From assembly GCA_022844405.1 (NCBI GenBank), contig JALHLV010000008.1, forward strand, positions 62,001 through 126,000: a stretch of DNA of 64,000 nt, read 5' to 3'. The position numbers and the translations under genes were made by a program. Below are positions 22,338 to 27,725 of the stretch, in pieces. Positions within the stretch are counted from its first letter, which is position 1. Each line of letters opens with the position of its first letter. Origin of the DNA: Sphingomonadales bacterium. Lineage in GTDB: Bacteria > Pseudomonadota > Alphaproteobacteria > SMXS01. The notes beneath the pieces are model-generated. The model was not told the origin of the DNA and did no database searches. It worked only from the letters and a program-made list of their open reading frames with translations.

Positions 22338-22958
22338 CTATGGCTTCCTGGCGGCGTCTTCCTTCTGGATGAAGGCCACCAGCGTGCGTGCGTCGGGTAC
22401 GCCGGTCTCGGGGATCCCGGCCGACTTCTGGAAGGCGAGCAGCGCTTCCTTGCTCGATGCGCCGTAGAGCCCGTCGGGCGTGCCCTGGAACAGGCCTTGC
22501 GCCTTCATCTTCTCCTGCATCCACTTCAGGGTGGACTGGCGCAGCGCCGCGCGGGCGTCGCCCACCGTCACCTCGACCAGCTGGGACTGCTCGGTCACCT
22601 TGTAGGGAGCGAAGAAGTTCATCAGCTGGGCGACCGCCGTCTCGAAGCGCAGCGCCGGCTGCGTCATGCAGTAGTTGCGCACCATCTGGCCGACGACCGC
22701 CGCCTCGGTCACCGGCGACACGTCGAAGGTCTGGGCCTGCAGCCGGTTGATGCCGGTGAGGTAGCCCTCCATCCACGACATGTAGGGCATGACGTCCTGG
22801 GCGCTCTTGTCCACCGCGGCCATGAAATCCGAGCATGGCCGGGCGCCGATGCCGCGGACGATGTAGTTGCCCTTGGGATCGGAGGCATGGGCGCCCTGGG
22901 CCGCCATGGCGGCGACCAGCAGGGCCGCGGCGGCCGTCGTGCGGATGAAACTGTTCAT
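22338..22958 (-). CDS. Secreted protein with C-terminal peptidoglycan-binding-like domain
   Basis: 206 residues. Residues 1-25 form a signal peptide (TAAAALLVAAMAAQGAHA). The middle part has two cysteines (ARPCSDF and RNYCMT). The last ~50 residues (QGLFQGTPDGLYGASSKEALLAFQKSAGIPETG) form a PG_binding_1-like helical repeat, which places it in the periplasm at the cell wall. The start was chosen at ATG 22956-22958, directly before the signal peptide. It stands alone between the methyltransferase and the polyamine genes. Enzymatic activity is not evident. Confidence 0.75.
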   Translation of the reverse strand: MNSFIRTTAAAALLVAAMAAQGAHASDPKGNYIVRGIGARPCSDFMAAVDKSAQDVMPYMSWMEGYLTGINRLQAQTFDVSPVTEAAVVGQMVRNYCMTQPALRFETAVAQLMNFFAPYKVTEQSQLVEVTVGDARAALRQSTLKWMQEKMKAQGLFQGTPDGLYGASSKEALLAFQKSAGIPETGVPDARTLVAFIQKEDAARKP

Positions 22959-23329
22959 GTCGACTCTACTCACGGTTGGCTGGCGTCGCGGGAGTGCGGC
23001 GGCGGAGTGTAGCGGCAGGGCGCGCGGGAGACAAGGCAGCCAGCCGGAGGCCCCGTCGCCCCGATGCCGGAAACCGGCCATTTTCCGCCCGCCGGAAAAC
23101 CCCTGGCAACACCTTGGCGGGCCAAGCGAAAATGCGAAAAATTTTTTGCTTGATTCCAGGGGTCGAAACTCATATTTGACTGTCTGCCCAATAGTCGCAC
23201 GTGCCCATAGGCGCCGGCACAACGTCCCTCGGGATGAGGCGTCATATAGCAACGACGGTGAGGGCTTTTTTGGTCTCAGTCGGCTGTCCAAAAGCCGGCG
23301 ACACTGAAGAGGCACACCATCTTTGCCCC

Positions 23330-23413
23330 ATGTGCGGATCGGTCCTCCTGTTCCAACCTAAGGCACCCACCGGAGCTTCGCCGCGGTTGGCGTCGCTCCA
23401 TTTCGGTCTGTAG
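23330..23413 (+). CDS. Candidate leader peptide upstream of ornithine decarboxylase
   Basis: 27 residues from ATG 23330 to TAG 23411-23413 (starts MCGSVLLFQPKAPTG). A longer version from TTG 23270 has a better ribosome binding site (GTGAGGG about 5 nt upstream) and would give 47 residues. The ORF covers the hairpin at 23372-23399, so a ribosome paused inside it would change the downstream fold. That ornithine or polyamine controls it is inference by analogy with leader-controlled ornithine decarboxylases in other bacteria. Confidence 0.45.
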   Translation: MCGSVLLFQPKAPTGASPRLASLHFGL

Positions 23414-23444
23414 GAATCTTCGCGGGTTCGGCGCCTCCATCGCG

Positions 23445-23486
23445 TCCCCTGTGCGGAAACCTGCCGGCAGCAATGAAGGTAGGGGA
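23445..23486 (+). promoter_or_regulatory. Hairpin covering the ornithine decarboxylase ribosome binding site
   Basis: TCCCCT at 23445-23450 is complementary to AGGGGA at 23481-23486, which lies 8 nt before the ATG at 23495 and is the only Shine-Dalgarno candidate. Between them CTGCCGGCAG (23461-23470) is self-complementary. Pairing would hide the ribosome binding site. Confidence 0.55.
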
Positions 23487-23494
23487 TCGGTCTT

Positions 23495-24628
23495 ATGGCG
23501 ACCCAACGCGTCCTTGACTATCTTGCCACCACGCGGCCGGAAGGCCCGTGCCTCGTCGTCGATCTCGACGTCGTTCGTGAAAACTATCTGGCGTTCGCCC
23601 GGGCGCTGCCGGAAACCCGCATCTTCTACGCGGTGAAGGCCAATCCGGCGCCGGAAGTGCTGAACCTGCTGGCCGGGCTGGGCTCGAGCTTCGACACCGC
23701 CTCGGTGACGGAGATCGAGATGGCGCTGGCCGCCGGCGCGACGCCGGACCGCATCTCGTTCGGCAACACCATCAAGAAGGAACGCGACATCGCGCGCGCC
23801 TTCGCGCTCGGCATCGACCTCTATGCGGTCGACTGCGTCGAGGAGGTGGAGAAGATCGCGCGCCAGGCGCCAGGCGCCCGCGTGTTCTGCCGCGTGCTGG
23901 CCGACGGTGCCGGCGCCGAATGGCCGCTGAGCCGCAAGTTCGGCTGCGTCCCGGCCATGGCCGTCGGCGTGCTGGAAACGGCCAGGGACCTTGGTCTGTC
24001 GCCCTACGGCATCTCGTTCCACGTCGGCTCGCAGCAGGGCAACGTGGGCGCGTGGGACAGTGCGCTGGCCGACGCCTCCATGGTGTTCCGCGCCCTGGCG
24101 GAACGCGGCATCCAGCTGTCCATGGTCAACATGGGCGGCGGTTTCCCGACCCGGTACCTGAAGGACGTGCCGAAAGTGGACGCCTATGCGCAGGCGATCT
24201 TCGGCGCGCTGCGACGACATTTCGGCAACCGTCTGCCCGAGACCATCATCGAACCGGGCCGGGGCATGGTTGGCGATGCCGGCGTGATCAAGGCCGAGGT
24301 CGTGCTGATCTCGCGCAAGTCCGACGAGGACAATGTGCGGTGGGTCTATCTCGACATCGGCAAATTCGGCGGCCTGGCGGAAACCATGGACGAGTCGATC
24401 CGTTATCCCATCCGCACCCCGCGCGATGGCGATGCGGTCGCACCCTGTGTCCTGGCCGGCCCGACATGCGATTCGGCGGACGTGCTGTATGAACGGACCC
24501 CCTACCCGCTCCCCATTTCCCTGGAGATCGGCGACGAGGTTCTGATCGAGGCGACGGGCGCGTACACCACCACCTATGCGTCGGTTGCCTTCAACGGATT
24601 TTCGCCCCTCCAGGCGATCGTCATCTAA
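23495..24628 (+). CDS. Ornithine decarboxylase, PLP fold type III
   Basis: 377 residues, the length of eukaryotic-type/alphaproteobacterial ornithine (or ornithine/lysine) decarboxylases. PLP binds Lys48 in FYAVKANP. The phosphate is held by the glycine loop MGGGFPTRY and EPGRGMVGDAG. Cys325 in GPTCDSADVL is the catalytic cysteine at the dimer interface. It makes putrescine, the entry to the homospermidine made by the synthase two genes downstream. Expression is probably controlled through the leader at 23270-23494. The N-acetyltransferase follows after 9 nt. Confidence 0.93.
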   Translation: MATQRVLDYLATTRPEGPCLVVDLDVVRENYLAFARALPETRIFYAVKANPAPEVLNLLAGLGSSFDTASVTEIEMALAAGATPDRISFGNTIKKERDIARAFALGIDLYAVDCVEEVEKIARQAPGARVFCRVLADGAGAEWPLSRKFGCVPAMAVGVLETARDLGLSPYGISFHVGSQQGNVGAWDSALADASMVFRALAERGIQLSMVNMGGGFPTRYLKDVPKVDAYAQAIFGALRRHFGNRLPETIIEPGRGMVGDAGVIKAEVVLISRKSDEDNVRWVYLDIGKFGGLAETMDESIRYPIRTPRDGDAVAPCVLAGPTCDSADVLYERTPYPLPISLEIGDEVLIEATGAYTTTYASVAFNGFSPLQAIVI

Positions 24629-24637
24629 GGCACGGAC

Positions 24638-25186
24638 ATGATCGTGATCCGCAACGAAACGGCGCCGGACATTCCGGCGCGGGAAATCCTGCTGGACCGG
24701 GCCCTGCCCGGCCGGCACCTGAAAACCTGCGAGAAGCTGCGGCGGGGCAGGTCTCCCGCCGACGGCCTCGCCTTCAGCGCCTGGCAGGGCGCAAGGCTCG
24801 CCGGCACGGTCCGGCTGTGGCATGTCGAGGCCGGTTCGGCCGGCGACGCGCTGCTGCTCGGCCCGATCGGCGTGCTGCCCGAATGCCAGGGCCTGGGCAT
24901 CGGCACGCTGCTGATGGACCATGCGCTGGCGCAAGCCTCGGCCATGGGCCACCGAGCGGTGATCCTGGTGGGCGACGCGCCCTATTACGAGCGGTTCGGC
25001 TTCTCGCCGGCGCCGACCGCCAGCCTCACCCTGCCCGGCCCGTTCGAACGCGACCGTTTCCTGGGCCTGGAGCTGGTGGCCGGCACGCTTGCCGGCGCCA
25101 TCGGCATGGTGAAGGCCGGCAAGCGCCTTGACGCGGGAGACGACCGACGCCGCGCCGCGCTGATCGAATTCAGGCAGGCGGCCTGA
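24638..25186 (+). CDS. GNAT N-acetyltransferase
   Basis: 182 residues. The acetyl-CoA-binding motif A is seen at IGVLPECQGLGIGTLLMDHAL (Q-x-x-G-x-G type). The C-terminal YYERFGFSPAP element is shared with YhbS-like acetyltransferases. It starts 9 nt after the ornithine decarboxylase stop, so it is in the same operon. That position makes putrescine or another polyamine a candidate substrate, though many YhbS-like proteins act on other amines or on proteins. No membrane or signal sequence is seen. Confidence 0.87.
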   Translation: MIVIRNETAPDIPAREILLDRALPGRHLKTCEKLRRGRSPADGLAFSAWQGARLAGTVRLWHVEAGSAGDALLLGPIGVLPECQGLGIGTLLMDHALAQASAMGHRAVILVGDAPYYERFGFSPAPTASLTLPGPFERDRFLGLELVAGTLAGAIGMVKAGKRLDAGDDRRRAALIEFRQAA

Positions 25187-25299: not shown

Positions 25300-26733
25300 T
25301 TGAACGCATCGTCCATCCACGCCCGCTTCGACGGCCCCATCGTGATGATCGGCTTCGGCTCGATCGGCCGCGGCACGCTGCCGCTGATCCTGCGGCATAT
25401 CGAGTGCGACCGGGACAAGTTCACCGTGATCGATCCCGAGGACGAGCACCGCGACATGGTGTCCCACGCCGGGGTGAACTTCATCCATGACGGCATCCGG
25501 GTCGACAACTACCGCGACCTGCTGACGCCGTTGCTGACCGCCGGACCGGGCCGGGCCTTCGTCGTCAACCTGTCGGTCGACGTGTCGTCGGTGGCGATCA
25601 TGGAGCTGTGCAAGGACCTGGACGCGCTCTACATCGACACCGTCGCCGAACCGTGGCTGGGCTTCTACACCGACACCAGCCTGTCGGTGTCGCAGCGCTC
25701 CAACTACGCGCTGCGGCAGGCCGTGCTGGACCTGCGCACGCGCCGTCCCGGCGGCCCGACCGCGGTCAATTGTTGCGGCGCCAATCCGGGCATGGTGTCG
25801 TGGTTCGTCAAGCAAGCGCTGCTCAATCTGGCCAGCGACATGGACATGAAAGTCGAGAAGCCCGCCAGCCGCGAGCAGTGGGGCCGGCTGATGCGGCAGG
25901 TCGGCGTCAAGGGCATCCACATCGCCGAGCGCGACACCCAGCGCGCCCGCGATCCCAAGCCGAAGGGCATCTTCGTCAACACCTGGTCGGTGGAAGGCTT
26001 CATCTCGGAAGGCCTGCAGCCGGCCGAGCTGGGCTGGGGCACCCACGAGAAGGCGCTGCCGCCCGAAGGCCGGACCCATGAAGGCGGCTGCGGCGCGGCG
26101 ATCTACCTGCTGCGGCCCGGCGCCGGCACCCGCGTCCGCTCGTGGACGCCGACGGCGCAGGCCCAGCACGGCTTCCTGGTGACCCACAACGAGGCGATCT
26201 CCATCGCCGACTATTTCACCGTGCGCGAGGGCGGCGAGGCGGTCTACCGGCCGACCTGCCACTACGCCTATCATCCCTGCGACGACGCGGTGCTGTCGCT
26301 GCACGAGATGGCCGGCGCCGAGTGGCGGCGGCAGGACGACTGGATCATCCTGGACGAGCACGACATCGTCGACGGCATCGACGAGCTGGGCGTGCTGCTC
26401 TACGGCCACGGCAGGAACGCGTACTGGTACGGCTCGCAGCTGTCGATCGAGGAAACCCGCGAGATCGCGCCCTACCAGAACGCCACCGGCCTGCAGGTGA
26501 CCTCGGCGGTGCTGGCCGGCATGGTCTGGGCGCTGGAGAACCCCGACCGGGGCGTGGTCGAGGCCGACGAAACCGACTTCGAGCGGTGCCTCGAGGTGCA
26601 GCGTCCCTATCTGGGTCCCGTCGTCGGCGTCTACACCGACTGGACCCCGCTCGCCAACCGCGAGGGCGGCCTGTTCCCCGACGACTACGACGCCGACGAT
26701 CCGTGGCAGTTCGCGAATGTGATCGTGCGGTAG
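25300..26733 (+). CDS. hss: Homospermidine synthase
   Basis: 477 residues, the normal length for bacterial homospermidine synthase. The N-terminal MIGFGSIGRGTLPLILRHI is the NAD-binding Rossmann turn, and the remaining sequence has the conserved NCCGANPGMVSW and GGCGAAIYLLRPG. It joins two putrescines, or putrescine and spermidine, to sym-homospermidine with NAD as a bound cofactor. The start is a TTG with AGGAGG about 6 nt upstream. A tiny ORF (ATG 25277, MRKPGGAP) ends at TGA 25301-25303, overlapping this TTG. A GTCCCGGCCGGGAC palindrome precedes it at about 25203, so it may have its own promoter. Confidence 0.95.
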   Translation: MNASSIHARFDGPIVMIGFGSIGRGTLPLILRHIECDRDKFTVIDPEDEHRDMVSHAGVNFIHDGIRVDNYRDLLTPLLTAGPGRAFVVNLSVDVSSVAIMELCKDLDALYIDTVAEPWLGFYTDTSLSVSQRSNYALRQAVLDLRTRRPGGPTAVNCCGANPGMVSWFVKQALLNLASDMDMKVEKPASREQWGRLMRQVGVKGIHIAERDTQRARDPKPKGIFVNTWSVEGFISEGLQPAELGWGTHEKALPPEGRTHEGGCGAAIYLLRPGAGTRVRSWTPTAQAQHGFLVTHNEAISIADYFTVREGGEAVYRPTCHYAYHPCDDAVLSLHEMAGAEWRRQDDWIILDEHDIVDGIDELGVLLYGHGRNAYWYGSQLSIEETREIAPYQNATGLQVTSAVLAGMVWALENPDRGVVEADETDFERCLEVQRPYLGPVVGVYTDWTPLANREGGLFPDDYDADDPWQFANVIVR

Positions 26734-26788: not shown

Positions 26789-26865
26789 CTACTGTAAACA
26801 GTAGCTAACAAGCTGGCTGTTCCGTAAGGGCAGCAAATCCTATGGCCACCTTCGGGTGGCCATAG
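26789..26865. terminator. Two hairpins after homospermidine synthase
   Basis: A small CTACTG/CAGTAG stem (26789-26804) is followed by a perfect 11-bp stem with a TTCG tetraloop (26840-26850 / 26855-26865). The second hairpin ends 17 nt before the TTG start of the DUF3800 gene. No T-run follows, so termination is only a guess. Confidence 0.5.
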
Positions 26866-26882
26866 TTGCTTACGGGGGGATT

Positions 26883-27725
26883 TTGCATCTTTTTTACATC
26901 GATGAATCGGGCGATCTCGGGGCCATGCCAGCCAACCCCGCCCCAACCGGAAATGATCAGCCGATCCTGGTAGTGGGCGCTCTCATTGTCGAAGCTGCGC
27001 GACTCGAAGCCCTGACGTTGGATTTCCTCCATCTCAAGCGACGCTTCTATCCAGGCCTCCCTTATCCAAGTGCAAATCATCTCGACAAGATTATTCCAGA
27101 GATCAAGGGCGCGGATATTCGCCGGCAAGCAACCCGCGGAGGAAGAAATCAACGGCGCCACGCAATCGGTTTTCTAGACAAGATACTCCTTATGCTCGAT
27201 GCGCATGGCATTCGCCTCTTGTGTCGTATCTGGGTAAAGGCTCCGGGAGCACCGCTGAATGGACGAGCCATTTACACATCCTCTATCCAGTGGATGTACT
27301 CCTCATTCGAGAACTATCTGGCCAGCAAAACCAGCGTCGGCTTCTGCATCGCAGATAGTCGGGACCATCTCAAGAATGTCTCGGTTGCACATTCCATTTT
27401 CACCCAGAAATTTCGGGCATCGTCGCCGACTTACGCCCGCATGCTGGAGCTTCCCACTTTCGGGCACAGCGAGAACCATGCCGGCCTCCAGTTGTGCGAT
27501 ATCGTCTGCTCGGCACTGCTGTATCCCATTGCGGCGGAAGTGTACTGCACAGGACACGTGTCCAACATCCATGTCCAGCCAGGCGCGGCAGCGTTGAGGC
27601 AACGCTTCGGCCCGGCGATCAAAGAAATGCAATTCCGCTATCGCGAACCGCTCGGCAAGTGGAACGGTGGCATCGTCGTATCTGATCCGATTGGCCAGAG
27701 AAACGCGTCTCTGCTGTTCCAGTAA
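26883..27725 (+). CDS. DUF3800 domain protein
   Basis: 280 residues from TTG 26883. The N-terminal LHLFYIDESGDLG is the defining motif of DUF3800, with paired acidic residues that suggest an RNase H-like metal site. A second acidic stretch, FCIADSRDH, and a late LQLCDIVCSALL fit the family. The TTG start has GGGGGGA directly upstream and gives the usual family N-terminus; GTG 26856 would lie inside the preceding hairpin. DUF3800 genes are common in mobile and defence regions, and this one has lower GC than its neighbours. No partner gene is visible. Function is not established. Confidence 0.8.
   Translation: MHLFYIDESGDLGAMPANPAPTGNDQPILVVGALIVEAARLEALTLDFLHLKRRFYPGLPYPSANHLDKIIPEIKGADIRRQATRGGRNQRRHAIGFLDKILLMLDAHGIRLLCRIWVKAPGAPLNGRAIYTSSIQWMYSSFENYLASKTSVGFCIADSRDHLKNVSVAHSIFTQKFRASSPTYARMLELPTFGHSENHAGLQLCDIVCSALLYPIAAEVYCTGHVSNIHVQPGAAALRQRFGPAIKEMQFRYREPLGKWNGGIVVSDPIGQRNASLLFQ

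Follow-up and report, generated by a model that had tools for sequence, protein, structure and literature searches.

The question raised by this locus is whether the leader of an ornithine decarboxylase (ODC) gene acts through a small translated ORF or through the RNA itself. The window, that is, the whole stretch of 64,000 nucleotides that was analysed, carries the ODC gene at 23495..24628 (+ strand, as for all features below unless stated otherwise). Its product belongs to the Orn/DAP/Arg decarboxylase family (PF02784 and PF00278), with lysine/ornithine decarboxylases as its best solved relatives, and comparison with NCBIfam gave nothing above the cut-off. The gene is followed by that of a GNAT-family acetyltransferase (24638..25186, PF00583) and, in third place, by that of homospermidine synthase (Hss; 25300..26733, structure match 4plp, E 8.4e-238). 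These three genes, located on the same strand between 23495 and 26733, likely form a polyamine operon. Divergent to the leader, a protein with a peptidoglycan-binding domain and a weak HdeA match under the cut-off is encoded at 22338-22958 (- strand), and a DUF3800 protein is encoded downstream of the polyamine genes (26856-27725, + strand).

Two families reached the gathering threshold when the window was scanned with Rfam, both of them in the ODC leader. The speF model RF00518 matches 23278..23428 with 62.5 bits (gathering 37, E 6.3e-13), confirming the view of an earlier, sequence-only reading of this DNA that the ODC leader is of the speF kind. Membership is indicated by this score, by the ODC gene downstream at 23495 and by a long, bulged stem whose outer pairs are invariant. 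Directly 5' of it, the ar45 "sRNA" family RF02347 matches 23186-23269, membership being assigned by score (48.4 bits, compared with a gathering value of 40). An extended model, R1, gave 124.6 bits for 23249-23368, the window's own sequence being among the rows of R1. The element in the window belongs to a known orphan leader family: no mechanism accompanied the description of speF in 2005, and the function of both speF and ar45 is called unclear in the accessible text of a 2020 paper (PMC7717549). What is added here is a proposed two-state link between ar45 and speF, and a hairpin near the ribosome site that is widespread in such leaders.

The spread of these families was analysed in several samples. 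Matches to RF00518 were found in 7/7 genomes of the genus, in 15/385 drawn from the class and in 116/249 of one order. At 18 of 20 scanned loci both families scored above gathering, in the same order and 7-9 nt apart, and at L005 and L200 speF was found without ar45 above gathering. In the 249 genomes of one order, where co-occurrence was counted per genome irrespective of the distance between leader and ODC, a close relative of this ODC (E <= 1e-100) was present in 121, ar45 in 100 and Hss (E <= 1e-100) in 122. An RF00518 match occurred in 115 of the 121 ODC genomes. That of G438 (L206) sits away from its ODC; in G438, G474 and G570 the leader at ODC was detected by ar45 and model R1, so that a leader is present in 117 of the 121. 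In the ODC genomes G390, G429, G433 and G468 no leader was found by RF00518, ar45 or R1. A speF match in G420, a genome without ODC, was unconfirmed by R1 and was set aside. The strongly diverged leader L225 (G301), whose ODC is 68% identical, was missed by RF00518 and found at E 3.8e-5 by R1, among whose rows it had not been used. For the comparisons that follow, 209 loci yielded 198 with an ODC match and 196 segments (L092 and L192 gave none and were dropped), of which 68 non-redundant ODC leaders remained after removal of near-duplicates, a set that includes the window and is weighted to one order. The distance from GCAACGA to the ODC start was 203-511 nt in 195 leaders, a count that leaves out L131, in which the start codon was not found.

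The 5' part of the leader suggests where transcription begins. A promoter is predicted at 23149..23177 from its conserved spacing, with a -35 element CTTGAT at 23149-23154 and a -10 region CATATTT at 23171-23177. All 68 leaders have a -35-like TTG upstream of the GCCC arm of ar45, at a distance of either 35 or 36 nt (36 + 32 leaders), implying that ar45 and the ODC mRNA probably share their 5' end. The full -35/-10 pattern was present in 50/68 leaders, and a strict promoter scan did not list the predicted promoter. A transcript start downstream of 23450, which the sequence-only reading had counted against its own proposal, is not what this promoter, predicted far upstream, would give.

From the predicted 5' end of the ODC transcript, the ar45 hairpin extends over 23186..23271, where GCCC (23186-23189) pairs with GGGC (23262-23265) and six U follow (23266-23271). 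As judged from its sequence, this hairpin with its U-tract looks like a terminator. The basal stem is GCCC:GGGC in 65 of the 68 leaders, ACCC:GGGU in 2 and GUCC:UGGU in 1. Five or more consecutive T are present in 55/68, and fewer than five in the other 13/68, in which termination should therefore be weak. Such short or interrupted U-tracts, often CCUUUCU, occur for example in L059 (Phyllobacterium), L061 (Aquamicrobium) and L068 (Chelativorans), the leader being otherwise conserved. The ar45 hairpin was not listed by a generic terminator scan, the rules of which want a loop of 3-8, and the stopped RNA of the window was not unusually stable in comparison with shuffles (z -1.47). Published work on SmrC45, the S. 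meliloti ar45 RNA, broadly agrees with the terminator reading in the parts of the papers that were available. A primary 5' end was mapped there by TAP-RACE and a Rho-independent terminator assigned, giving 181 nt (PMC2780559), which differs from the 148 nt given by RNA-seq (PMC2873474). A review table places the SmrC45 promoter under RpoH1/2 (PMC7143759), and in Mesorhizobium huakuii Smr45C is said, in the accessible text, not to have been found (PMC5596092).

The RNA that continues beyond the U-tract can adopt a different fold, a long bulged stem at 23249..23326. The 68 leaders were aligned by MAFFT without structure and folded by RNAalifold, and the consensus contained the invariant GCAA:UUGC, GG(U/A):(A/U)CC and 9/11 pairs of GCUUUUUUGGU:ACUGAAGAGGC. 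In the window, the invariant outer pairs join GCAA 23249-23252 to UUGC 23323-23326, GGU 23257-23259 pairs with ACC 23316-23318, the U-tract helix joins GCUUUUUUGGU 23264-23274 to ACUGAAGAGGC 23303-23313, and an apical stem joins 23280-23285 to 23293-23298. Just 3' of it, a small hairpin at 23336..23354 pairs GGA 23336-23338 with UCC 23352-23354 and has further inner pairs; 87.7% of its cells are paired, and 2/3 of its counted pairs change on both sides. When this hairpin was counted together with the long stem, including all eleven U-tract pairs, 95.7% of cells were paired versus 88.8% in shuffles and 34-54% when the pairing was slid by one to three columns, and 122 cells were changed on both sides versus 38 in shuffles.

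The contributions of the individual helices differ. The outer GCAA:UUGC is kept in 68/68 leaders including the window; outside the 68, L230 (G430) lacks the GCAA strand, as seen by eye. The strongest covariation is observed in the GG(U/A) and apical stems, and in the U-tract helix 1/11 pairs shows two-sided change, with a mismatch at one pair in 9/68. The dinucleotide beside the invariant stem appears as GU:AC in 29 leaders, UA:UA in 28, GA:UC in 7, AA:UU in 2 and other forms in 2. On an ODC tree that was built quickly and includes some short rows, it changed at least 11 times. An independent-pairs test on the tree had only two supported pairs, one agreeing and one not differing, and proves nothing, since too few pairs fall on supported branches. 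By eye, a base common to the terminator stem and the U-tract helix is changed in L207 together with both of its rival partners (GCCC to ACCC, GGC to GAC), and L225 retains both helices with other letters, the U-tract helix in the form GCUUUUUUAGC:GCUGAAGAGGC and the terminator stem in the form CCGUC:GACGG. A further outer helix at 23197..23335, between GCAC 23197-23200 in the ar45 5' arm and GUGC 23332-23335, is plausible in read-through RNA, where its mean calculated pairing probability is 0.73 (>0.5 in 51/68). It is nearly invariant in sequence and is broken in L009, L010 and L208. The local hairpin GGCA:UGCC of the Rfam model and the rival 3' pairing UUGCC:GGCA were both discarded, having no changes on both sides.

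Corbino et al. (PMC1273637) very likely described the read-through fold already, as their "long bulged stem-loop". As far as the available text of that paper goes, the leader described there likewise lies upstream of the same kind of ODC and has a 5' stem near the transcription start followed by a long bulged stem-loop, the absolutely conserved outermost pairs of which fit GCAA:UUGC here. The RF00518 model differs in that it begins after the 5' strand of the long stem and shows the local hairpin GGCA:UGCC, for which covariation is lacking. The speF section of Corbino et al. differs in making no mention of a terminator alternative and in assigning no structure to the >150 nt that precede the start codon, the region in which the ribosome-site hairpin described below lies (PMC1273637).

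The terminator stem and the read-through stem share the 3' arm of ar45 and its U-tract. In calculated folds of the stopped RNA, the mean pairing of the terminator stem was 0.95 (>0.5 in 67/68), and in read-through RNA it was 0.00, where GCAA:UUGC reached 0.87 (>0.5 in 62/68) and the U-tract helix 0.88 (63/68). When the sequence downstream was shuffled, the terminator stem had a mean of 0.19 and exceeded 0.5 in 3/68, so that most of its loss in read-through RNA is unspecific. Considering conservation, covariation, the fixed promoter spacing and the lack of a conserved peptide, the reading preferred here, with a probability of about two-thirds, is that ar45, speF and the ribosome-site hairpin constitute one extended speF element that acts as an RNA-only two-state transcription attenuator, possibly with a translational layer. 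Transcription would start at about 23186. In the first state, the ar45 hairpin and the six U would stop RNA polymerase at about 23271, and the short RNA would be released. In the second state, that of read-through, the 3' arm of the terminator and the U-tract would re-pair with speF (GCAA:UUGC, GG(U/A):(A/U)CC and GCUUUUUUGGU:ACUGAAGAGGC), a fold that would replace the terminator hairpin in the ODC mRNA and may fix the leader of mRNAs that have escaped. Near the gene, a loop of the (U)CUCCA type can pair with the ODC Shine-Dalgarno sequence and may hold translation down. It should be noted that the partner for re-pairing is transcribed after the terminator. Re-pairing is thus too late to decide termination in the same transcript, and the decision between stop and read-through must come from something that acts on ar45 itself. 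Three points of this picture are inferences: synthesis of the short RNA in this organism, regulation of the balance between stopping and reading through, and occlusion of the ribosome by the loop.

The stretch that separates speF from the gene suggests the translational layer. In it, a hairpin with a CUCCA loop (GGCGC-CUCCAUC-GCGUC, 23430..23446) resembles an anti-Shine-Dalgarno element. A hairpin with TCCA in the loop was found between speF and ODC in 62/68 leaders versus 2-14 in 20 rounds of shuffling, the loop containing CTCCA in 46 of the 62, TTCCA in 8 and GTCCA in 7. Its median distance from the start is 71 nt, with 47 leaders in the range of 60-90 nt, and by the rule used it is absent from L006, L019, L043, L046, L061 and L200. 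The calculated energy between each leader's own loop and its Shine-Dalgarno sequence was -8.01 kcal/mol, compared with -7.01 kcal/mol for shuffled loops, the lowest of 200 shuffles being -7.83 kcal/mol. When loops were swapped among the 62 leaders, the energy was -7.96 kcal/mol (P 0.41), giving no sign of covariation between loop and Shine-Dalgarno sequence. The own and swapped energies being equal, direct pairing between them in the ODC leader is possible but not proven.

The sequence-only reading had placed the occlusion of the ribosome site slightly differently, between TCCCCT at 23445..23450 and the Shine-Dalgarno AGGGGA at 23481..23486. Both sequences are present, TCCCCT is the complement of AGGGGA, and the ODC ribosome site could indeed be masked by pairing. 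The isolated fold of 23445-23486 does not contain this pair; another stem takes part of the Shine-Dalgarno sequence, and the stability of this fold is like that of shuffles (z -0.13). Partition folding of the 3' part of the leader with 30 nt of the gene gave a mean pairing of the Shine-Dalgarno region of 0.99 in the window and of 0.37 to 0.82 in eight other leaders. Within the genus the pairing is kept, TCCCCT or TCTCCT being present in 7/7 members and AGGGGA in 6/7 (L004 has AGGGGT), but the feature found more widely is the adjoining TCCA-loop hairpin, the 3' strand of which TCCCCT overlaps by two bases. Further 5', in the variable part of the leader, the local hairpin at 23372..23399 is as stable as had been claimed (-16.0 kcal/mol, z -3.0, 1/200 shuffles as stable), and by eye it is kept in the genus sequences.

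In a classical riboswitch, ar45 or the speF core would directly bind a small molecule, a reading which can coexist with the attenuator and which we regard as less likely than not, though far from negligible. The 68 leaders contain nearly invariant stretches, CACGUGCC and UCCA among them, that pairing does not explain, which speaks for it. Against it, according to the accessible text of Corbino et al., none of six compounds was bound, namely ornithine, lysine, meso-DAP, putrescine, cadaverine and spermidine (PMC1273637). Homospermidine, the product of the Hss encoded two genes downstream, is a candidate ligand outside that published list. Hss is the third gene here and is present in 112/121 ODC genomes (E <= 1e-100). 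Of the 9/121 without Hss, five have the leader (G430, G501, G541, G546 and G548, with G546 only 58% complete), so that homospermidine need not be the signal everywhere.

A reading in which ar45 acts in trans as an independent sRNA, its place in front of ODC being incidental and speF being a separate leader, is improbable. The view has a published basis: SmrC45 was reported as an sRNA bound by Hfq in co-immunoprecipitation (PMC2848018), and ar45 was called independently expressed in Bartonella, where it gave a separate northern signal and speF was part of an RNA of more than 700 bases (PMC7717549), as stated in the available portions of both papers. It sits poorly with the fact that all 100 ar45 genomes of the 249 also have ODC (E <= 1e-100), with the single promoter-like spacing (TTG 35/36 nt upstream) and with covariation between the 3' arm and speF. 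Compared with RF02347, the element here has the same promoter position, hairpin and U-tract, and differs in that ar45 is described there as an sRNA and is read here as an ODC mRNA that was stopped early. A role in trans could nevertheless be added to the attenuator, since ar45 carries the strand GCAACGACGGU...GGGCUUUUUU, which pairs in cis with speF and could invade ODC mRNAs in trans. Abundant, Hfq-bound ar45 could then invade read-through ODC mRNAs and close their leader, a negative feedback on polyamine synthesis set by homospermidine-dependent termination, and we consider this extension speculative and rather unlikely.

The small ORF on which the sequence-only reading was built does exist. 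It runs from ATG 23330 to TAG 23413 (23330..23413, 27 codons), and the frame can also be entered at TTG 23270 (47 codons) or at GTG 23201. Comparison across the 68 leaders shows that it is not a conserved feature. An ATG at the site of 23330 occurs in 3/68. A TTG behind the U-tract occurs in 54/68; the next conserved block then lies in frame 0/2/1 in 25/16/13 of these, and the resulting ORFs have 4 to 521 codons. From the TTG of TTGCC the ORFs have 3 to 526 codons, and from GTG 23332 (GTGCGG), present in 67/68, they have 2 to 523. Modulo 3, the spacings between conserved blocks take every possible value, though for TTGCC-GTGCG the usual spacing is 9 nt (59/68). A leader peptide from any of these four start candidates was accordingly rejected, no conserved small ORF having been found in the 68 leaders, and such scatter of frames and lengths implies that a peptide is not what selection keeps. 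What was taken as a "good ribosome binding site" for TTG 23270 belongs to the ar45 terminator stem, of which it forms the 3' arm. A peptide-like motif H..C..CG, obtained by translating the Rfam consensus, was dropped because L004, of the same genus, has an indel at that place. RNA structure, and not a peptide, is conserved in the leader.

A precedent for control by a translated ORF is known from the Salmonella speF leader, which is long like the present one and shares with it premature termination, here as predicted, and a ribosome site that may be hidden, but which, in the accessible text, needs Rho and a translated small ORF, orf34, with two arginine codons (PMC6386406); RR is absent in frame from 23270 or 23330. 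The leader-peptide attenuator, in which a ribosome on the small ORF would be stalled with ornithine or polyamine and would shift the pairing at the ODC ribosome site, is thus largely refuted on its main point by the lack of conservation, and its probability is put at very little. The S. meliloti trp attenuator RNA rnTrpL resembles the proposed stopped ar45 RNA in that a leader ended by termination builds up as an sRNA, and differs in encoding a leader peptide, of which the ODC leaders here have no conserved counterpart (PMC7143759 and PMC10117765, in their available parts).

For the two-state attenuator, one earlier finding is close: the accessible text of a 2008 paper treats the speF leader and smrC45 as one locus (PMC2573895). 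A description of ar45 and speF as alternative folds was not found in the passages of open-access papers that were consulted. If ar45 and speF are mutually exclusive folds of a single ODC leader, they would represent a concrete, testable mechanism of polyamine control in many alphaproteobacteria, one that names homospermidine as a candidate ligand and argues against the search for a leader peptide.

Several minor observations were made in the course of the comparison. An Hss match in a genome without ODC (both at E <= 1e-100) was recorded in G415, G457, G492, G522, G544, G550, G565, G573, G588 and G615. The record of L069 (CALQFM020000020.1) is titled Candidatus Kuenenia stuttgartiensis and contains this alphaproteobacterial ODC at 96.6% identity, so the title looks wrong. 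L183, L191, L208 and L209 are natural short leaders with an ar45 match of only 56-57 nt and would be useful for bench work.
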